Shown here: positions 8,859 through 48,346 of the stretch, one piece after another | Layout of the letters: each line of letters opens with the position of its first letter | Position numbering within the stretch: the stretch's first letter is position 1 | Assembly: GCA_007695365.1 (NCBI GenBank) | Contig: REDV01000117.1 | Location: 1 to 49,091 of the forward strand | Direction of reading: 5' to 3' | Source of the DNA: Cryomorphaceae bacterium | GTDB lineage: Bacteria; Bacteroidota; Bacteroidia; Flavobacteriales_D; SKUL01 | Length of the DNA: 49,091 nt | The notes under the pieces: generated by a model | The model's input: only the letters and a program-made list of their open reading frames with translations | Databases searched by the model: none | What the model was told of the DNA's origin: nothing | Made by a program: the position numbers and the translations under genes

Positions 8859-11800
8859 CTACCTGATGACGGTTATATGTCCCCGGTATTGTTCTACTTC
8901 CTGCGTGATGGCATTTTTCACTTCGATGGAGTACACGTATACTTCGGGTTGTGTAAAGTACTCACCACTTGCCTCAGCACCATTCCAGCCCTGATTTACA
9001 TCGGTGGTTTCAAACACGAGCTGTCCGGCACGATTGAAAATCTGCATGCGGAAATGCGAAGGATCCCACTCGTTCCCCATCGGACGGAAGATCTCATTGA
9101 TACCATCACCATCCGGCGTGAATGCATTGGGAATAAACACGCGGAATTCACGGGGTGTGAAGTGCGCAACGATCTCATCCGGCACCTGAATGTTCAAACG
9201 CATTTCAGGGCTTTCATCAGAGGGTACGGGTGCGTGCTGCACGGTGCTCCAATGGCTGAATTCCCATTTCTGCTGAGGTATCGCCTTGAAATGCGTATTG
9301 TTCATGGCCAGCACATTTCCAGTCCAGGGAAGGAAGGGCAACATGTTCCAATCGAGCATTACAAATCCACTTCCTTCGGGCTCTACGCGCACGGTTATGG
9401 GGTAGTTTGGAAGTTCTATGAACGAGGCTATGATGGTGTCTTCCCCTATAATCTGGAGTTGCACATTTCTCATATCCGCATTGGGTGCAAAGGTGCCGCC
9501 ATCGGTTGATTGCCAACCAATGAAATCGTAGAATTCACTGGTGGGAACTGCCCGCAACGGGTGGGTTTCCTGGGTTGACAACATACCTTCCCACCACGAA
9601 CCTTCGTCGGTGCCGTGGATTTCCACAGTTCCGTATTCAGGTGGATCGGTCATTACCACCACATTGAATACTGTAATGACCTGAAACAAGGCAACAATAG
9701 AATCTGCCTGCACAACCTCAAAGCTGATAAACAGGTCGTTGAGATTGGTCACAAGATGGTTTTGAAATGTCCACCCAACAAATTCATAGCCCTCTTCAGG
9801 AACGGCTTCAAATTGCGCCGTATTACCAGGAACGATTTCAACCGTTGCCGGATTATCCTCGAGTGTTTCACCATTGAACACCACTTGACCCATACCGGGC
9901 TCTTCGACCGTAACAATAAGTTCAACAGGCAGTTGGTAGAAATGAGCAATGACTTCATCGGTTTGAGCGGTGGTGTATGTGGCTACTTCGCTTGTGTCGT
10001 TGGGTGCAAACACGGTATCACCCTGATGTACCGTTTCCCAATGGCTGAAGGCCCATCCCGGCTCTGCGGTTGCCACAATATCGTGTTCTATCAATGCCGC
10101 TAAGGAGTCGGTATATGGATAGTTCGGTATCAGAAACTCATTGAGTTCTATCCATCCTGTTCCGGGAGGCTCAACATTAAAGGTTATGGGGTATTCCTCC
10201 AGCGGAATGAAGTGAGCGACAATCGTTACGTCACCCTGAGGGTTTACTGTGATTTCGAACTGTGTTTCATCGTCGTATTCCAACTCCCCCAACAGTGTTT
10301 CCCAAAACTGAAAGGCTGCCTCACCGGTTGCGTTGGCCGTGAGATCAAAGGGCACCTCAGCAAAATAGGTACCTGTCCAGGGTGAATCTCCCGGGCCGAT
10401 GGTAATAGAATTAAGCACCACTTCGCCCTCGCCGATAATCTCTATGGTTACTTCGATGGCGGTCAGGTCGTAACAATCTTCCAACCCTTCTACAATCTGC
10501 TCCTCGCAACGGGCTTCTATAAAGTCTATCAATGACTGCACGTTGTTCTGCCAGCCTGCGTATGTACCGCCCCAGCGCTCAATTTGCCTTGGCATTTCAG
10601 GGTCAATCATGTTAAGAAGGCTATCTAAGTGAGCCAGCGCAAACTCGCAACTCAATGTGGAGTTGATTAAATCGGCGTAGCGGTTGATGTAGGTTTCGAA
10701 GAATTCTTCGTTCTCAAGCAAGGCGCTAAAAATTTGGGTATGCCCCTGCCCTCCGGGGTTGTTAAGCTGATGTCCGAAGCAAGGATCAGCATCAGGCCCT
10801 GTGTTGGGAATACCTGTGTAGTTGATGTAGTGCCCAAAGGCCGCATCCATATCCCACAAGGTGTACCGCCATTCGGTTGCTCCGCCAAATTCGTTGTAAC
10901 CACGCCACCATGCTGTATTCCAGTTGAGCCAGTCTGCGGCCACAATCCAGGTATTGATGGCAAAGTAATCTATAAGACTGATCACGTTGAGCTGGGTTTT
11001 CACGTAGTCATAATTCACCTGATCGGTCATGTCCTGGTTCGTGATAAAGTTGCGCAGGGTATTCCAGTTGTCCATGGTGCCCCACTTTGCCCAGGTGTTC
11101 CCCCAGGTTTTGATAAAGTCCATACTGAATTTGTCCTGACTGTAGTAATAGTCAGTATATCTCCAATCGTCAACTTTTTCACGGTAATCGTACACTCCCC
11201 AATACTGGCCGTTGGCATAGAGCACACAAAACTCAGTGGAGCGGCAATCCAAATCCATCCCTCCTACCTGAGAGAGCGACTGTACATAGGCATCGCGAAT
11301 ATGAGCACCATTTTCATAAGGGTAATTGTCGTTGGCACCGGCCTTAAACATGTACCTTTTGTAACGAGGACGGTCTGAGATTCTGAAAAGCTCTAGTTCG
11401 GTTTTACCGCTGTAGCCCATTTTATCGCGATCAATCCAGTCAATGCCGCGTTGCGCGTAGGCCCAACTGTCGTTTCCGTGTTTGTTGGTGTCACCAAACG
11501 ACTTTGAGATTCGTTGCCCGTTTTCGTCAAAAACCTCCATGGTGGTAATCGGAATATTTTGAACTCCACCCAACAGGATCAGCACTTCATCACCGGCTAC
11601 CGAGAAAGCGGGCAGCGTATGCTGATCTTCACCAACAAAGAATGTACTCCATTCAAAAAAACTGCGCAGGAAGTCGGGGTTGTTGCTAAAAGTAGCTGCC
11701 ATCAACACGGTGGTTTCATTGATGTTGATGGGACCGTTGTAAACCGGCGAGGCTTCGGTAGGAAAGGTACCGTCCAGGGTGTAACGAATCACAAATTCCG

Positions 11801-12446
11801 GACTGGGGTCTGGCAGCGAGATGGCGACAGTAATTCCACCTCCGTGATATCCGGCGGGTTGATCAAATTCGGGTGTTGGAGCGTAATTGGTGTATGGCGT
11901 TGAAGTATTGTTTGAAGCGTTGATGGTGGGCTGGGTAAAAACCACCCAATTATCTGCTCCATCCGGGTAGCGTCCGCGCGTGTGCCCAAGCTGACTGGTC
12001 TCTTCAATCATGTTCACATCCACAATGGTGCTGCCATCTGGAGCCACCAACGCGATGATTTCATTTTCCTGGGTTTGTCCCAGTCTGAAGTTAGCATGCA
12101 GATTGTTAAGGTCAAAGGGCAGCCCCATCCTGCCCGAAAGCCATATTCGCAAAAAACCATTACCCGGGATTACAGAGCCCGCGGGAAATGTCCATTTGTC
12201 GAGATTGGTGATGCGGTCCGTCATATGGTAACCGCTGAGATCATAGGGGGTTGGCGAGGTGTTGTAGAGTTCAACCCAGTCTTCACACTCGCCGAAGTTG
12301 TCTTCCACCTGGTTGGGGTTGTGGACAGAGCAAAGATTGGTGGCGCCTATTTCATTGATCACAACCTGAGCGGAGAGCATGGTGTGTGCAAACAAGGCAA
12401 AAGTCAGTAGCGCTATTTTGGTAAGCCAGTCGTCTCGGTAGAACAT
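8859..12446 (-). CDS. CotH kinase/lamin-tail surface protein, copy 2, T9SS type B tail
   Basis: 1195 residues. The signal peptide ends at LSAQ (about 27). Then a lamin-tail domain (VVINEIGATN ... GRYPDGADNWVVFTQPT, about 28-185), a chitobiase-type beta-sandwich (YTLDGTFPTEASPVYNGPI), and a CotH-kinase domain (about 330-640; DRDKMGYSG, WDMDAAFG). Five InlB-like repeats with a G..F..W core follow, and a gliding-motility-associated C-terminal (CHU_C/type B) domain starts at FIPNAFTPDGDGINEIF. CotH proteins are atypical protein kinases known from Bacillus spore coats; kinase activity here is inference. It is paralogous to the neighbour at 12671-16258, which has the same length and domain order. 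It probably has its own promoter in 12447-12616, because a terminator closes the upstream copy. Confidence 0.85.
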   Translation of the reverse strand: MFYRDDWLTKIALLTFALFAHTMLSAQVVINEIGATNLCSVHNPNQVEDNFGECEDWVELYNTSPTPYDLSGYHMTDRITNLDKWTFPAGSVIPGNGFLRIWLSGRMGLPFDLNNLHANFRLGQTQENEIIALVAPDGSTIVDVNMIEETSQLGHTRGRYPDGADNWVVFTQPTINASNNTSTPYTNYAPTPEFDQPAGYHGGGITVAISLPDPSPEFVIRYTLDGTFPTEASPVYNGPININETTVLMAATFSNNPDFLRSFFEWSTFFVGEDQHTLPAFSVAGDEVLILLGGVQNIPITTMEVFDENGQRISKSFGDTNKHGNDSWAYAQRGIDWIDRDKMGYSGKTELELFRISDRPRYKRYMFKAGANDNYPYENGAHIRDAYVQSLSQVGGMDLDCRSTEFCVLYANGQYWGVYDYREKVDDWRYTDYYYSQDKFSMDFIKTWGNTWAKWGTMDNWNTLRNFITNQDMTDQVNYDYVKTQLNVISLIDYFAINTWIVAADWLNWNTAWWRGYNEFGGATEWRYTLWDMDAAFGHYINYTGIPNTGPDADPCFGHQLNNPGGQGHTQIFSALLENEEFFETYINRYADLINSTLSCEFALAHLDSLLNMIDPEMPRQIERWGGTYAGWQNNVQSLIDFIEARCEEQIVEGLEDCYDLTAIEVTIEIIGEGEVVLNSITIGPGDSPWTGTYFAEVPFDLTANATGEAAFQFWETLLGELEYDDETQFEITVNPQGDVTIVAHFIPLEEYPITFNVEPPGTGWIELNEFLIPNYPYTDSLAALIEHDIVATAEPGWAFSHWETVHQGDTVFAPNDTSEVATYTTAQTDEVIAHFYQLPVELIVTVEEPGMGQVVFNGETLEDNPATVEIVPGNTAQFEAVPEEGYEFVGWTFQNHLVTNLNDLFISFEVVQADSIVALFQVITVFNVVVMTDPPEYGTVEIHGTDEGSWWEGMLSTQETHPLRAVPTSEFYDFIGWQSTDGGTFAPNADMRNVQLQIIGEDTIIASFIELPNYPITVRVEPEGSGFVMLDWNMLPFLPWTGNVLAMNNTHFKAIPQQKWEFSHWSTVQHAPVPSDESPEMRLNIQVPDEIVAHFTPREFRVFIPNAFTPDGDGINEIFRPMGNEWDPSHFRMQIFNRAGQLVFETTDVNQGWNGAEASGEYFTQPEVYVYSIEVKNAITQEVEQYRGHITVIR

Positions 12447-12670: not shown

Positions 12671-15600
12671 TTATCTGATTACGGTGATGTGCCCCATATA
12701 GGTCTTTATTTCCTTGCTGATGGCATTCTTGACTTCAATTCGGTACACGTAAACCTCGGGTTGTGTGTAGTATTGTCCACCAGCTTCCGAGCCATTCCAT
12801 CCCTGATTCACATCGGTGGTTTCGAATACCATTTTTCCGGCGCGATTGAATATCTGCATGCGGAAATGCGAAGGATCCCATTCATTACCCAGTGGTCGGA
12901 AGATTTCATTCACGCCATCACCATCGGGGGTAAACGCATTCGGGATGTACACAGCGTACTCGCGAGGTACGAAGTGAGCAACAATTTCGTCGGGAACGGC
13001 TATATTGATGCGCATCTCATCGCTTTCCACAGATGGTACCGGCGCGTGGTATATCGTTGACCAACGGCTGAACTCCCATTCATTTTTGGGAAGGGCCTTA
13101 AAGTGCGTGTTGTTCATGGCGAGTACGTTGCCTGTCCACGGGTACTGTGGCAGCACGCTCCAATCCAGTGCAACAAAACCGCTTCCCTCAGGCTCTACGC
13201 GCACGGTAATGGGGAAATTGGGCAACTCAATGAATTGCGCAATGATGGTATCCTCATTGAATATCTGCAATTGCACGTTTCGCATATCTGCATTAGGAGT
13301 AAACTCTCCTCCGTTGGTAGATTGCCAGCCCACAAACTCGTAGAACTCATGCGAGGGAACCGCGCGCAGTGGGTGGGTTGAAAGAGTTGAAAGCATTCCT
13401 TGCCAGAAGGAGCCTTCATCAACACCGTGTATCTCTACTGTTCCGAATTCAGCCGGCTCGGTCATCACAACCACGTTGAAAATGGTGATTACCTGGAAGT
13501 GGGCTACGATGGAGTCGAAGGTTACGACTTCAAAGGAGAGGAAAAGATCGTTGAGGTTGCTGAAAGTGTGGTTTTGGAATGTCCAGCCTACAAATTCGTA
13601 GCCTTCTGCCGGAACAGCTTCAAGTTGGGCAATATTTCCCGGCACAATTTCTACTGTGGCCGGATAATCTTCTAGTTCTTGCCCATTGAAAATCACAGTT
13701 CCCATTCCGGGTTCTTCAACCGAGATAACGAGATCCACAGGCAAGAGATAAAAGTGCGCCGTAATCTCATCGCTTTGCTCAATGATGATGGATACCACAT
13801 CGGTGGTGTCGGAAGGATCAAACAAAATGGGCCCGTGTGTGGTGGACTCCCAATGACTAAACGCCCACCCGGGTTCAGGAATGGCCACAAGGTTGTGGGT
13901 TGGGCCCGCGGTGAGAGAATCGGTGTAAGGATAGTTCAGGATGGTCTCTCCGTTGAGTTCAATAAAGCCTGATCCCTCGGGCTCTACCCAGAAGGTTACG
14001 GGATACATCTCAACCGGAATGAAATGAGCCACAATGGTTACGCTGCCATCGGGGTTTACCGTAATAGATAATTCGGTTTCATCATCGTATTCAAGGTTAC
14101 CTACAAGGGTTTCCCAAAACTGGAACGCATCGTCACCTGTCGGAATGGCTGTAAGGTCAAAAGGAACTTCGGCAAAGTATGTTCCCGTCCAGGGGGAATC
14201 ACCGGGGGTAATGGTGATGCCATTGAGTTGCACCTCACCTTCTCCTTCAATCACGATGGTCACATCAATTGCAGTTAGGTCGTAGCAATCCTCCATCCCC
14301 TCAATGATCACCTCAGCGCAACGTGTCTCAATAAAGTTGTACAAGGCATTTACGTTGTTTTGCCAGCCGGCCATTGAGCCCCCCCATCGTTGAATCTGCC
14401 GTGGCATTTCTGGTTCAATAATGCCAATCAAACTGTCGAGGTGTGCTATAGAAAACTCACAACTGAACACCGAGTTGATGAGATCCGCATATCGATTGAT
14501 GTAGGTGTTGAAAAACTCCTCGTTGTTCAATAGCGCGCTAAAAATCTGAGTATGCCCCTGGCCTCCGGGGTTGTTCAATTGATGCCCGAAACACGGATCT
14601 GCAGTAGGACCTGTGTTGGGGATTCCGGTATAGTTGATATAATGGCCAAAAGCGGCATCCATATCCCACAGCGTATAACGCCATTCGGTGGCACCTCCAA
14701 ACTGGTTGTACCCCCTCCACCACGCCGTGTTCCAGTTAAGCCAGTCAGAGGCAACAATCCAGGTGTTTACAGCAAAATAGTCAATGAGGCTGATTACGTT
14801 GAGTTGGGTTTTTACGTAGTCGTAATTCACCTGATCACTCATGTCGTTGCCCGTGATAAAATTCCGGAGGGTGTTCCAATTTTGTTGGGTGCCGTATTTG
14901 GCCCAGGTGCCTCCCCATGTCTTGATAAAGTCCATCTGGAAGCGGTTCTGATTGTAGTAGTATTCAGTAAAACGCCAGTCATCTACTTTTTCGCGGTAGT
15001 CATACACACCCCAGTACTGACCGTTGGCATAGAGCACACAGAACTCCACCGTGCGCTCATCCAGATCGAGGTTTCCAACCTGAGAAAGCGACATTACGTA
15101 CGCGTCGCGTATGTGGGCTCCTCCGTTTTGAAATGGGTAGTTGTCGTTTGCTGCTGCTTTAAACATGTAACGCTTGAATTGCGCCTTGTCTTTCATGCGA
15201 AAAAGCTGCAGTTCGGTATAACCACTATAACCCATTTTATCTCGGTCAATCCAGTCAATGCCACGCTGCTGGTATGCCCAACTATCGTTACCGTGTTTAT
15301 TGGTATCACCGAGGGATTTTGAAATGCGCTCACCGTTCTCGTTGAACACTTCCATGGTGGTAAGGGGCACAATTTGCTGCCCCCCGAGAAGGGTCAATAC
15401 CTGTGTTCCGGCAACAGAAAAAGCGGGTAGTGTGTGTTGATCCATACCCAAAAAGAAGGTGCTCCATTCATAAAAGCCACGCAACATGTTCGGATTGTTG
15501 GAGAACGTAGCCGCCATCAGTACAGTTGTTTCCGAAATATTGATGGGCCCATTGTAAACCGGAGATGCCTGTGTGGGAAAGGAACCATCCAGTGTGTAGC

Positions 15601-16258
15601 GAATAACATAATCGGGGCTTGGGTCGGGAATGGTAATTTCAACGTTAATGGCACCCCCATGATAGCCCGCCGGTTGACTGAACACCGGGGTAGGCGCATA
15701 TCCATCATATGGGGTGGCTGTATTGTTGGATGCCCCAACAGTAGGTTGGGTAAAGACCACCCAGTTGTCAGCTCCGTCGGGATAGCGGCCGCGGGTGTGG
15801 CCCACCTGCGATGTTTCTTCAATCATGTTCACATCCAGAATGGTACTTCCATCGGGCGCCACAAAAGCAATCACCTCATTTTCCTGGGTTTGACCTATGC
15901 GAAAATTAGCATGCAGGTGGTTATTGTCAAAAGGAACTCCAATTCGGCCGGAAAGCCATACACGCAAGAAACCGTTGGCCGGAATCGTTGAACCTGCCGG
16001 AAAAGTCCACTTTGAGAGATTAGACAATCGGTCGGTAAGGTGATGGCCCGCGAGGTTAACAGGAGCTCCGGTAGGGTTGTACAACTCTACCCAGTCTTCA
16101 TGCTGGCCAAAATTATCCTGAATTTGATTCGGATTGAGGTTGTTTCCCAGGTTGGTTGCCATAAATTCGTTGATGACAACCTGAGCCTCTGCTCCAGTGG
16201 CACACAAAATTGAGCACAGTAAGCCCATTATCACACTCCAGACAGTGATGCGGTTCAT
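12671..16258 (-). CDS. CotH kinase/lamin-tail surface protein, copy 1, T9SS type B tail
   Basis: 1195 residues, the upstream member of a tandem pair. Signal peptide (1-26, ending GAEAQ), lamin-tail domain (about 27-185), chitobiase-like sandwich (YTLDGSFPTQASPVYNGPI), CotH-kinase domain (about 330-640; DRDKMGYSG, WDMDAAFG, Trp-rich WIVASDWLNWNTAWWRGYN), five InlB-like repeats (for example AFSHWES, YEFVGWTF, FYEFVGWQS) and a type B gliding-associated C-terminal domain (YIPNAFTPDGDGVNEIF). By eye the kinase region is nearly identical to copy 2, whereas signal peptides and repeats diverge more. The equal lengths come from compensating indels: one residue fewer in the signal peptide and one more at NGGAH. 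A terminator follows, so the two copies are probably separate transcripts. Confidence 0.85.
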   Translation of the reverse strand: MNRITVWSVIMGLLCSILCATGAEAQVVINEFMATNLGNNLNPNQIQDNFGQHEDWVELYNPTGAPVNLAGHHLTDRLSNLSKWTFPAGSTIPANGFLRVWLSGRIGVPFDNNHLHANFRIGQTQENEVIAFVAPDGSTILDVNMIEETSQVGHTRGRYPDGADNWVVFTQPTVGASNNTATPYDGYAPTPVFSQPAGYHGGAINVEITIPDPSPDYVIRYTLDGSFPTQASPVYNGPINISETTVLMAATFSNNPNMLRGFYEWSTFFLGMDQHTLPAFSVAGTQVLTLLGGQQIVPLTTMEVFNENGERISKSLGDTNKHGNDSWAYQQRGIDWIDRDKMGYSGYTELQLFRMKDKAQFKRYMFKAAANDNYPFQNGGAHIRDAYVMSLSQVGNLDLDERTVEFCVLYANGQYWGVYDYREKVDDWRFTEYYYNQNRFQMDFIKTWGGTWAKYGTQQNWNTLRNFITGNDMSDQVNYDYVKTQLNVISLIDYFAVNTWIVASDWLNWNTAWWRGYNQFGGATEWRYTLWDMDAAFGHYINYTGIPNTGPTADPCFGHQLNNPGGQGHTQIFSALLNNEEFFNTYINRYADLINSVFSCEFSIAHLDSLIGIIEPEMPRQIQRWGGSMAGWQNNVNALYNFIETRCAEVIIEGMEDCYDLTAIDVTIVIEGEGEVQLNGITITPGDSPWTGTYFAEVPFDLTAIPTGDDAFQFWETLVGNLEYDDETELSITVNPDGSVTIVAHFIPVEMYPVTFWVEPEGSGFIELNGETILNYPYTDSLTAGPTHNLVAIPEPGWAFSHWESTTHGPILFDPSDTTDVVSIIIEQSDEITAHFYLLPVDLVISVEEPGMGTVIFNGQELEDYPATVEIVPGNIAQLEAVPAEGYEFVGWTFQNHTFSNLNDLFLSFEVVTFDSIVAHFQVITIFNVVVMTEPAEFGTVEIHGVDEGSFWQGMLSTLSTHPLRAVPSHEFYEFVGWQSTNGGEFTPNADMRNVQLQIFNEDTIIAQFIELPNFPITVRVEPEGSGFVALDWSVLPQYPWTGNVLAMNNTHFKALPKNEWEFSRWSTIYHAPVPSVESDEMRINIAVPDEIVAHFVPREYAVYIPNAFTPDGDGVNEIFRPLGNEWDPSHFRMQIFNRAGKMVFETTDVNQGWNGSEAGGQYYTQPEVYVYRIEVKNAISKEIKTYMGHITVIR

Positions 16259-45226: not shown

Positions 45227-45299
45227 CGGGGTGTGGCGCAGTTGGTAGCGCGCTACGTTCGGGACGTAGAGGTCGCTGGTTCAAGTCCAGTCACCCCGA
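45227..45299 (+). tRNA. tRNA-Pro(CGG)
   Basis: 73-nt cloverleaf. Acceptor CGGGGTG/CACCCCG with discriminator A; D arm GCGC-GCGC; anticodon stem CTACG/CGTAG with loop TTCGGGA (anticodon CGG); T arm GCTGG-TTCAAGT-CCAGT. No CCA is encoded. Confidence 0.95.
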
Positions 45300-45311
45300 C
45301 GAAAAAAATGA

Positions 45312-45342
45312 TTTGCGCGGATTAAAAATTGCGCTAATTTTG
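45312..45342 (+). promoter_or_regulatory. Promoter upstream of tRNA-Asp
   Basis: TTTG (45312-45315), 19 nt, TAATTTTG (45335-45342), exact consensus, 32 bp before the tRNA 5' end. It begins 12 bp after tRNA-Pro, so the two tRNA genes probably have separate promoters. Confidence 0.7.
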
Positions 45343-45374
45343 CAGCGCCTTAGTCGAAAGGCACCTTTTTAAGA

Positions 45375-45448
45375 GGTCTGGTAGTTCAGTTGGTTAGAAT
45401 ACCTGCCTGTCACGCAGGGGGTCGCGGGTTCGAGTCCCGTCCAGACCG
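45375..45448 (+). tRNA. tRNA-Asp(GTC)
   Basis: 74-nt cloverleaf. Acceptor GGTCTGG/CCAGACC with discriminator G; anticodon stem CCTGC/GCAGG with loop CTGTCAC (anticodon GTC); T arm GCGGG-TTCGAGT-CCCGT. No CCA is encoded. Confidence 0.95.
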
Positions 45449-45450
45449 CT

Positions 45451-45565: not shown

Positions 45566-45682
45566 GTTGTCATTTCGACCGGAGTGCTGAGGGTCGAAGT
45601 ACGGAGTAGCCAGCCCCGAAGAATTTCGGGAGAGAAATCTCATTCAGTTCACACTTTTATCTCATAATAGATTTCTCCGCTG
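45566..45682. repeat. REP-like palindromic patch
   Basis: Contains GTCATTTCGACCGGAG-type sequence, a CCCGAA-GAAT-TTCGGG hairpin (45615-45630) and GAGAAATCT (45632-45640) matched by AGATTTCTC (45669-45677). Such blocks are dispersed repeats in many Bacteroidota genomes (from general knowledge). Copy number cannot be judged from one window. Confidence 0.5.
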
Positions 45683-45791
45683 CGCTAATGTACAGCTTGT
45701 TTTCATTCTTCCATTTCAAAACTCCGGTATACCGGAGTGGTTACTACGGATTCTTTGTGGAAGTTGTACGGCAAAGCAGAACTTGCCGCAT

Positions 45792-45844: not shown

Positions 45845-46363
45845 TTATTTCTTATACCCGATCTTTTTTCTTGGGGTTTCCTGCTCTCTGATGAACTGTT
45901 TCAGGTATTCAAAGACCATTTGTATTTTCTCATCCTGACCGGCTACTCTCTTCTCCATTTCTTCGAGTTTGAGCAAAATATCCTTGTGGGTCAAGAGCAT
46001 TTCATTCAACTTTACAAACGTATCGATGATGAGCATGTTTACTTTATCTGCTCTTTCGCTTCTCAATACGCTGGACAGCATCAATATTCCATGATCTGTA
46101 AAGGCATAAGGAGGATATTTGGAATGTTGTCCTCTCTTTAAGGTCGCATTCTGCGATCTTAAAGATTTGTATTCCTCCTGTGTAAGCTGGAACATATACC
46201 TTTCCGGGAACTTACCGGGGTTTCTTTTTACCTGTTCATTCAGCCGCCTTGTCTCCACCTGGTAGAGCTCTGCCAGATCATGGGACAGCATGACTTTTTT
46301 TTCTCTGATGTGATAGATTTTGCTTACAATGACTTCTTCCGGTATCGCTATCTGCTCACTCAT
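45845..46363 (-). CDS. ORF6N-domain protein
   Basis: 172 residues. An ORF6N domain (about 8-100; VSKIYHIREKKVMLSHDLAELYQV, RRLNEQVKRNPGKFPERYMFQL read in parts, then YAFTDHGILMLSSVL) is followed by a coiled-coil region and a basic tail. ORF6N is a DNA-binding domain of phage and mobile-element proteins, related to the KilA-N/Bro group. Its role in chromosomes is unclear. Direct repeats lie on both sides (copies at 45792 and 47080), and the gene is in a repeat-rich tract beside tRNA genes, so it is likely horizontally acquired. Confidence 0.85.
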   Translation of the reverse strand: MSEQIAIPEEVIVSKIYHIREKKVMLSHDLAELYQVETRRLNEQVKRNPGKFPERYMFQLTQEEYKSLRSQNATLKRGQHSKYPPYAFTDHGILMLSSVLRSERADKVNMLIIDTFVKLNEMLLTHKDILLKLEEMEKRVAGQDEKIQMVFEYLKQFIREQETPRKKIGYKK

Positions 46364-46618
46364 TTCTTCTGATTTTACTGGTGTTTGCGGACCTTATTTG
46401 TTGGTCTCTTTGCTCATTGACCCAGGCTTTTATTGGGTTTGTAAAACTATTATTTCGGTTTGATATTCCCATTTGGAAAATCAAGACCTACCCGATAGGA
46501 TGGAACCTGGTAATGTCTTCGCTCAGATCATCCATGTCATTAATCCTTAATTCCGCAGGTTCGGTAAAGTCTCAAAGTTTTAACCTGAGTTCGATTATTA
46601 TTCGGGAATTCAGAGGTT

Positions 46619-46703
46619 CATAAACACCAAAATACAAGGCGCATTTTCAAAGCTTTAGCGGGCTAAAGCGCGAGAATGCAACGAAGTAGTTTGGTGTTTT
46701 ATG
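46619..46703. repeat. Imperfect 85-nt palindrome inside the inverted-repeat element
   Basis: Nested arms: CATAAACACCAAA (46619-46631) with TTTGGTGTTTTATG (46690-46703, one bulge), GCATTTTC (46641-46648) with GAGAATGC (46672-46679), and the inner GCTTTAG-CGGG-CTAAAGC hairpin (46652-46669). It could fold as RNA or as a cruciform. Confidence 0.6.
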
Positions 46704-46771
46704 GACAAGCCAATAAAATTTACACCTCTAAACAGCGATTTTCTGCCTAAAAATGACTTGAAACCGAGCCT

Positions 46772-46829
46772 GCGAGGTTCCATCTGACCGCTTAAAATCA
46801 GAATACAACAGATGAAATAGCCCGCTATT
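46772..46829. repeat. Dyad unit A
   Basis: CATCTG (46781-46786) and CAGATG (46809-46814) pair over a 22-nt loop. A second small hairpin AATAG-CCCG-CTATT (46816-46829) follows. It shares GCGAG..TTCCAT.TGACC with unit B. Confidence 0.55.
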
Positions 46830-46896
46830 CCTTCATCATTTTTAGTTGAAACGAGCTACGTAGAAAATATTAAAACACAGGAGGATGGTTGAAATG

Positions 46897-46949
46897 GCGA
46901 GTTCCATGTGACCTTTTAAAGTAAACATGAACACATGAAACTCACTATT
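46897..46949. repeat. Dyad unit B
   Basis: CATGTG (46905-46910) and CACATG (46932-46937) pair over a 21-nt loop; the arms differ from those of unit A at one base pair, and both sides change (C-G to G-C). A CTAT-TT-ATAG hairpin (46945-46954) follows. Confidence 0.55.
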
Positions 46950-47079
46950 TATAGGCGTTCTGAATCCTGAAGAATAATCGAACTCAGGTTTTTACGTGGA
47001 ATCAACCTCATTTGAGCCCCAGACACCATCGCTTTTGTTGTTTTGGAGTGTTTTGAACAACGATTTTGATTGGCCGGAG

Positions 47080-47114
47080 TAACACCTACGAAGCAGGGCT
47101 TTGCGGGTACGGGG
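47080..47114. repeat. Direct repeat, copy 2 (35 bp)
   Basis: TAACACCT then ACGAAGCAG-G-GCTTTGCGGGTACGGGG, in the same orientation as copy 1, 1288 bp away. The two copies bracket the ORF6N gene and the inverted-repeat element. Confidence 0.7.
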
Positions 47115-47247
47115 TGGAGTTCATTTCATTGATAGTAAAGCCCACGCGAAAGGATTGACTTCGTCGAATTTCATTTCGCGCGGTAGCGGGGTGGCTTTTT
47201 GCGGACGACCGATGACGAACACGACTTTTCCTGTTTCAATGTTAAAT

Positions 47248-47305: not shown

Positions 47306-48346
47306 TTACTTCTTTAATCGCTTCTCCTGCTCTACGATCTCTCTTTCTCTTTCTATTTCTTGTCTCAGCTGCTTTTCACTGGGCATGTAGGTTTTATATT
47401 CTGAAGCGAAAAGCTGTTTATTTTCATTCAGTACGCTGTACTTGACAATAGTGTGGTCTTTTTTCGCACAGAGGATCAGCCCGATTGTCGGGTTGTCATT
47501 TTCTTGTCTTACTTTATCCTCAAAATAGCGCACATACATGTCCATTTGCCCAATATCCTGATGGCTTAGCTCTTTAGTTTTCAGATCGATAATTAAGAAG
47601 CATTTTAGAATGTAGTTGTAAAAAACCAAATCTGCATAAAAATGTTTGCCTGTTTCTGTAGTTAGCCTGTATTGCCTGCCCACAAAAGCAAAGCCCTTGC
47701 CCAACTCCAGTAAAAAATCGTGCAGCTTGTCTATAATAGCTTGTTCCAGTTCATTCTCCCTAAAATCAGTATTGTCTTTCAAGTCGAGAAATTCCAATAC
47801 ATAAGGGTCTTTAATGATATCTCTCGCTTCTTGTCTTTGTGTTTTCCGGATGGCTTCTTTCTTAACTTCTTTGCTGTTTTTACTCATTACCATTCTCTGA
47901 TAATAAAGGTTGTTGATCTGTCGATCCAGGCTTCTTGTGCTCCAATTGCATTCAATTGCCTCCTGCAAGTAAAACTCCCGGGCTTCTTTCTCTTCTACTT
48001 TTAAAAGCAAGCGATAATGGGTCCAGGTTAATTCGTCACGCAGTGCGTGACTTTTCTCAAAAGTGCTGTAAAACTGGCGCATGTACTTTAAATTGGTGGC
48101 GGTAAATCCTCTCCCATATTCCGATGTAAGTTGTTCGGATAGCTGCCGGATAAGCTCTTCGCCATATTTTGCACGTTCCTTTCCTTTTTGCTCCTGCTCT
48201 ACAATCAGCCGGCCCACATTCCAGTAGGCCTGAACCATTGCAAAGTTGGCCGTCCGGTAAACCGTGTTGCGTGCTTCTTCTATAATTTGCCTGATCTCAT
48301 CGTACAGGGCTTCTATCTGCTTTGAAGGGATGTTCTTTTTACTCAT
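47306..48346 (-). CDS. DUF1016/YhcG-family PDDEXK nuclease
   Basis: 346 residues. A helical DUF1016 N-domain (about 10-170; AYWNVGRLIVEQEQ, YGRGFTATNLKYMRQFY) precedes a PDDEXK nuclease-like domain (about 185-330) with the YADLVFYN acidic residue and IIDLKT carrying Asp and Lys. Family members are accessory genes often found in restriction-modification or mobile contexts, and YhcG can bind proteins and nucleic acids; activity here is not shown. Its start is separated by 343 bp from the XRE gene to the right and no promoter was recognised. Surrounding repeats favour horizontal acquisition. Confidence 0.85.
   Translation of the reverse strand: MSKKNIPSKQIEALYDEIRQIIEEARNTVYRTANFAMVQAYWNVGRLIVEQEQKGKERAKYGEELIRQLSEQLTSEYGRGFTATNLKYMRQFYSTFEKSHALRDELTWTHYRLLLKVEEKEAREFYLQEAIECNWSTRSLDRQINNLYYQRMVMSKNSKEVKKEAIRKTQRQEARDIIKDPYVLEFLDLKDNTDFRENELEQAIIDKLHDFLLELGKGFAFVGRQYRLTTETGKHFYADLVFYNYILKCFLIIDLKTKELSHQDIGQMDMYVRYFEDKVRQENDNPTIGLILCAKKDHTIVKYSVLNENKQLFASEYKTYMPSEKQLRQEIEREREIVEQEKRLKK

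Follow-up and report, generated by a model that had tools for sequence, protein, structure and literature searches.

A MITE with IS982-family ends carrying an inverted pair of covarying hairpins in a Cryomorphaceae contig

In the analysed stretch of 49,091 nucleotides (the window), a 409-bp segment is bounded by inverted repeats that enclose a complex palindrome and two smaller dyads, units A and B. The first-pass annotation offered three candidates for it, a non-autonomous transposon, a structured non-coding RNA, or a retron-like source of single-stranded DNA (ssDNA), and read a compensatory difference between the stems of A and B as direct evidence of selection on base pairing. The locus raises the question of what kind of element this is, and which part of it, if any, is kept for its fold.

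A MITE with IS982-family ends

The terminal arms are 26 nt long and 92% complementary, with an 18-bp perfect core, AACCTGAGTTCGATTATT, and they surround the palindrome, A and B at the positions first described (Table 1). This terminus occurs in at least 119 stretches, nearly all labelled Bacteroidota; among the matches listed, it is borne by records of Pedobacter, Aquimarina, Psychroflexus, Galbibacter, Kordia, Flavobacterium, Chryseobacterium, Roseivirga, and Saprospiraceae. It is also held by one viral contig, and a search among plasmids gave no relatives. Copies with two ends mostly measure 100-450 bp. At four loci (L051, L101, L142, and L144) the ends lie 1011-1029 bp apart, and an open frame of about 290-302 codons is found within three of the four, the L051 frame being interrupted. 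The L101 protein, from Kordia algicida, belongs to the IS982 family (NF033520, 278 bits with a cut-off of 130; Pfam DDE_Tnp_1_3), and the AACCTGAGTTCGATTATT ends around the IS982 ORFs in L101 and L144 are identical to the MITE ends. A broken IS982 gene lies inside a 1029-bp pair of ends in genome G025, and a further intact IS982, with AACCTGAGTTCGAC ends and a TAG/TAG duplication, is present in genome G200.

An exact 3-bp target duplication flanks 52 of the 78 short elements, compared with 5.6 for shuffled flanks (maximum 14 in 2000). The elements use TNNNA target sites, which the window copy fits as T-TTT-A. For the genome copy number of the arm core, which had been suggested as a check, six terminus matches in five places were obtained in the own genome (G000). 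These represent at least five full or partial copies. Besides the window copy, contig C44 has one of 266 bp, and incomplete ones lie on C124, C39, and C140; several sit at contig ends, where repeats are expected. Because of the termini, the 3-bp duplications, and the several copies, the window element is a non-autonomous MITE with IS982-family ends, and the first of the three candidates is borne out.

The MITE is likely mobilised in trans by an IS982-family transposase. No match to such a transposase was found in the own genome, an assembly of 154 contigs from which a collapsed repeat may be missing, or in the MITE-rich genome G045 (at least 25 elements), where the assembly is likewise fragmented. 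Its absence from the own genome bears on present mobility, not on origin. For the window copy no empty site was found, as the only congeneric genome has no coverage of this locus.

Elements of 250-268 bp from different genera share one common architecture, and the canonical layout of about 265 bp (264-268) is terminal repeat, arm, spacer, inverted arm, terminal repeat. Of the relatives counted for gene context, none lies inside a called ORF; the flanking genes are convergent in 10 cases, tandem in 19, and divergent in 4, numbers too small to read an orientation preference from. Eight further elements with AACCTGAG ends (L048, L103, L112, and L132 of 192-196 bp; L054, L087, L111, and L127 of 173-187 bp) have unrelated, strongly folding palindromic cores; thus several foldback cargoes share IS982-type ends.

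Table 1. Coordinates of the window element and its parts (R1, covariance model built from first arms only; the element is oriented so that its first arm reads ACAAGGC...AACGNAGTA)
Feature	Position	Strand	Basis or remark
Whole MITE, 409 bp	46582..46990	+	Termini common to IS982 elements, TTT/TTT duplication, own-genome copies
Left copy of 3-bp target duplication, TTT	46579..46581	.	
Right copy of 3-bp target duplication, TTT	46991..46993	.	
Left terminal inverted repeat	46582..46607	+	18-bp perfect core 46582-46599
Right terminal inverted repeat	46965..46990	-	Perfect core 46973-46990
First arm, covarying hairpin	46616..46707	+ (folds on + strand)	Covariation, wobble bias, R1 96.4 bits, fold
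First arm, conserved internal loop	46634-46640 (ACAAGGC); 46680-46688 (AACGAAGTA)		Apex TAGCGGGCTA
Second arm, inverted, broken up by A and B	46725..46955	-	Sequence compared with intact 3' arms of relatives
Second arm, helices	46725-46732 with 46948-46955; 46747-46756 with 46836-46845		Apex AATAGCCCGCTATT 46816-46829
Putative insert A, 59 nt, holds unit A	46757..46815	+	C44 copy without it, C124 copy with it
Putative insert B, 89 nt, holds unit B	46853..46941	+	C39 copy without it; same position in L016 of G045
Unit A, 6-bp stem	CATCTG 46781-46786; CAGATG 46809-46814		Loop 22 nt
Unit B, stem	CATGTG 46905-46910; CACATG 46932-46937		Loop 21 nt; within a 12-bp imperfect stem, 46899-46910 with 46932-46943, extending 2 nt beyond insert B

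Base pairing in the arms and in units A and B

The stems and loops of units A and B are exactly as first described. However, the comparison of copies suggests that both units are secondary inserts. The 89 nt that make up B in the window are missing from the C39 copy, which reads GTTGAAAC/TCAC at that position, and the C44 copy lacks the 59 nt of A, which in the window splits the second arm. Subtraction of the two from the window copy (409 - 59 - 89) leaves 261 bp, near the canonical length. B lies at the same place in L016, a 351-bp element of G045, which belongs to another family, so B is an older sub-family feature. Among the loci fetched, L016 is the one place elsewhere with a B-type unit, with a G.T wobble in its stem, and A-type units, which resemble B, were seen only in the own genome (window and C124); A and B were consequently rejected as a conserved core. 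They were also rejected as an independent genome repeat, since all exact GTTCCATSTGACC matches in G000 fall within these elements. The C-G to G-C exchange between A and B is real and compatible with pairing. As a single pair and a single event it adds little, and the direct evidence of selection that had been claimed from it is weak.

The RNA fold of the whole element reaches -139 kcal/mol (z = -9.5), a value that none of 100 dinucleotide shuffles matched. Most of this stability is due to the first-arm palindrome (z = -7.7 for its 92 nt) and to the terminal repeats rather than to A or B, whose regions give z values of -1.9 and -1.1 (A) and -2.3 and -2.5 (B) on the two strands. A search for an intrinsic terminator or promoter gave nothing clearly above shuffles.

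The pairing of the first arm was evaluated in an alignment of 34 elements (A1), made with MAFFT from sequence alone. The structure tested, which was derived from the window copy and relatives, has three helices with 30 pairs in all. In this alignment, 88.0% of the cells are paired (66.1% after shuffling), both sides have changed at 27 of the 30 pairs, and the covariation score is 0.589 (shuffled, 0.196); double-change cells number 210 compared with 69, although such counts overstate independent events, as the sequences compared are related. No pairing or covariation value was reached by any of 500 shuffles. When the partner was slid by one column, pairing fell to 46-51%, a control that is somewhat favourable in that the structure came from the window copy and relatives. 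The outer helix is separated from the middle one by a conserved internal loop that is mostly unpaired (ACAAGGC opposite AACGNAGTA) and within which two or three pairs covary. In the pooled arms (66 distinct rows, in an alignment fitted to the model), 89.3% of the cells are paired compared with 60.6%. This strong covariation points to the first-arm hairpin and its inverted counterpart, and away from units A and B, as the site of selection on base pairing. The structured-RNA candidate is accordingly plausible for the arms, where the covariation is strand-specific, and not for the two units on which it had been based.

A known RNA family was rejected, since the window stretch has no Rfam 15 match even with E allowed up to 1, nor do the arms of eight further loci have any.

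Although R1 was built from first arms only, in about 19 elements it also detects a second arm, which invariably lies on the opposite strand at a distance of about 13-15 nt. On the window copy it scores the first arm as given in Table 1 and does not recognise the interrupted second arm. The model was also run over 392 genomes of the phylum; since no more than ten candidates are scored in each, the matches were few, and they give no frequency.

G.T and A.C mismatches are one and the same change seen from either strand, so equal counts would be expected if double-stranded DNA alone mattered. In first arms the ratio of G.T to A.C is 84:14 (95:18 in a larger pair set; 26:12 as column types). G.T-rich sequences outnumber A.C-rich ones by 40 to 2, and 17 of 19 clusters agree with none opposed, a cluster count that offsets the kinship of the sequences in part only. 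When second arms are counted on the opposite strand, to which they belong, the ratio is 37:3, and 18 of 19 sequences and all 7 clusters point the same way. The terminal repeats have no bias (31:33). Folding without an alignment gives the same pattern: the top strand folds better for the first arm in 34 of 37 elements and the bottom strand for the 3' domain in 29 of the 36 elements that differ, whereas whole elements have no strand preference (18 to 17). Each arm therefore folds best on the strand entering at its own end, and it is as the fold of that strand that the arm has been preserved. G.T is tolerated better than A.C in ssDNA too, so the strand bias alone is no proof of RNA. The autonomous IS982 copies (L051, L101, L142, and L144) have no R1 match to an arm, and the arms therefore do not look necessary for IS982 transposition.

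Possible roles of the hairpin dyad

The explanation favoured here, with a probability of roughly 0.55, is an IS982-mobilised MITE whose hairpin dyad is selected for folding of the entering strand and is most likely used as RNA. An IS982-family DDE transposase would recognise the AACCTGAGTTCGATTATT ends, insert the element at TNNNA, and duplicate 3 bp. The core would comprise two related hairpins in inverted orientation, with selection acting on the folding of the strand that enters from the end of each arm. A host transcript arriving from either direction would copy first an arm in working orientation, and the RNA of that arm could form a long hairpin, its internal loop fixed, that might then be processed, bound, or used to limit read-through. 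The chances that the arm fold acts as RNA rather than as ssDNA are put at about even. G-U is a regular pair in RNA, which favours RNA in read-through transcripts. The outside-in arrangement favours it too, in that one arm is sure to be in working orientation in either direction of transcription, as does the folding and processing in mRNA of other bacterial MITEs (Correia, ERIC; PMC10969869).

Among the alternatives, a rather unlikely one keeps the same MITE and holds that the arms are REPIN-like ssDNA hairpins. Recognition, in replication or movement, would be by a TnpA-REP-type Y1/HUH enzyme or some other factor that binds ssDNA. Inverted hairpin doublets with strand-specific folding do resemble REPINs, the REP doublets associated with RAYT, in which an inverted hairpin pair forms one mobile, extragenic unit predicted to fold as ssDNA or mRNA (PMC3116915). 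Two inverted hairpins in one unit are found here as well (by R1 in about 19 relatives, the second arm of the window copy being interrupted). However, the hairpins of the window type are about 90 nt long with a conserved internal loop, and instead of the REPIN pattern of no DDE-type duplication and mobilisation by a Y1 RAYT, the elements have IS982-type ends and 3-bp duplications, which are of the DDE transposition type. Y1 enzymes are not known to produce duplications of that type. Y1_Tnp genes are present in all eight arm-bearing genomes tested, but such genes are common, so their co-occurrence tells little, and G.T in the stems is best explained where G-U pairs regularly.

It is improbable that the covariation of this MITE arose by mutation, through template switching that copies changes across the stem of a quasi-palindrome and makes nested inserts. 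Quasi-palindrome correction is an established mutational process; the B-like sequence of insert A at a TTGAAA-like junction and the nested inserts at hairpin tips in L078, L102, and L161 would fit it. On the other hand, template switching should erase, not keep, an unpaired internal loop, it gives no account of why G.T should outnumber A.C, and do so on a different strand in each arm, and the terminal repeats, which are likewise inverted, have no G.T bias. As an observation in its own right, L078, L102, and L161 have additional hairpin sequence at or near the arm tips, with both tips enlarged in L102.

Highly improbable is a plain MITE, a decayed IS982 with functionless foldback filler in which structure is a by-product of palindromic ends. 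IS982-derived MITEs for which no core function was reported are known (PMC9769881), and other AACCTGAG elements of 173-226 bp do have unrelated foldback cores. Against this, the autonomous IS lacks the arm, different genera conserve the arm's length and loop, and the pairs of the arm covary, the first-arm covariation speaking against filler for the 265-bp class. The retron-like source of multicopy ssDNA deserves next to no credence: nothing suggests it except that the DNA is structured and non-coding, a Pfam scan of the larger ORFs of the window found neither a reverse transcriptase nor a transposase (as the first-pass annotation had also noted), the repeat ends are explained by DDE transposon ends with target duplications, and the relatives sit between unrelated genes.

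Relation to described elements and genomic surroundings

IS982-derived MITEs are already known. In the openly accessible literature, no account of a widespread MITE family or arm module of this kind was found, and a search for published sequences containing the terminus gave no relevant paper. Among the closest described elements, MITECca01 of Cardinium is an IS982-derived MITE of about 240 bp in a Bacteroidota host, with IS982 terminal repeats, no transposase, and multiple, mostly intergenic copies; it is set apart by its description as a derivative of one IS copy in one strain, for which neither a conserved hairpin module inside the element nor a strand-specific fold was reported (PMC9769881). 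Correia/ERIC/BOX-type MITEs are also small and intergenic with transcripts that fold, and RNase III cleaves Correia copies within mRNA, but the ends and hosts of these MITEs are different, and the part of that source used here makes no mention of a dyad of inverted arms whose strand biases are opposite (PMC10969869). BrickBuilt of Porphyromonas gingivalis is likewise an intergenic, non-autonomous MITE of Bacteroidota; unlike the present element, it has a core of 23-nt tandem repeats without a hairpin dyad and was described in one species (PMC4596501).

The structure of MITEs is usually seen as a by-product of their inverted repeats. Here, an internal module absent from the autonomous transposon has kept its pairing across many genera, and the strand bias reverses between the arms. 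Together, these are a testable sign of a selected RNA (or ssDNA) function on a non-coding transposon, and the covariance model can now be used to annotate the arm module across Bacteroidota.

A relative outside IS982 ends was found by R1 in G200, a closed genome; it is a palindrome with one arm, about 160 bp long and bounded by GAACTCATCTTGAC termini (E of about 2e-5 to 4e-4 per genome). A DNA search of this genome gave about 25 near-full-length copies and more diverged ones (e.g., L184 1467-1628, L225-L244). Most of the copies read have 3-bp duplications (e.g., ATT, TAT, ACT, and TCT), and one is nested within an AACCTGAG element (L182). From model scores of 41-47 bits, homology of the G200 arm to the other arms is likely, though not certain. 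It is possible, at somewhat less than even odds, that the arm is a conserved and hitherto undescribed structured-RNA module carried by transposons in inverted duplicate under at least two terminal types, AACCTGAG (IS982) and GAACTCATCTTGAC (G200).

With regard to the surroundings of the MITE in the window, its neighbours are an ORF6N-domain gene (45845-46363, minus strand) and a gene for a YhcG/DUF1016 PDDEXK nuclease (47306-48346, minus strand). Two flanking segments, 45567-45685 and 47073-47198, have tens of partial matches in the same genome at 75-98% identity and are repeat families separate from the MITE. Genes for tRNA-Pro (cgg) and tRNA-Asp (gtc) lie at 45227-45449, just upstream of this repeat-rich stretch. 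In addition, two adjacent genes of equal length (1195 aa) at 8859-12446 and 12671-16258 on the minus strand have one domain set, comprising CotH kinase, lamin tail, and a type IX secretion signal, and apparently represent a tandem duplication.
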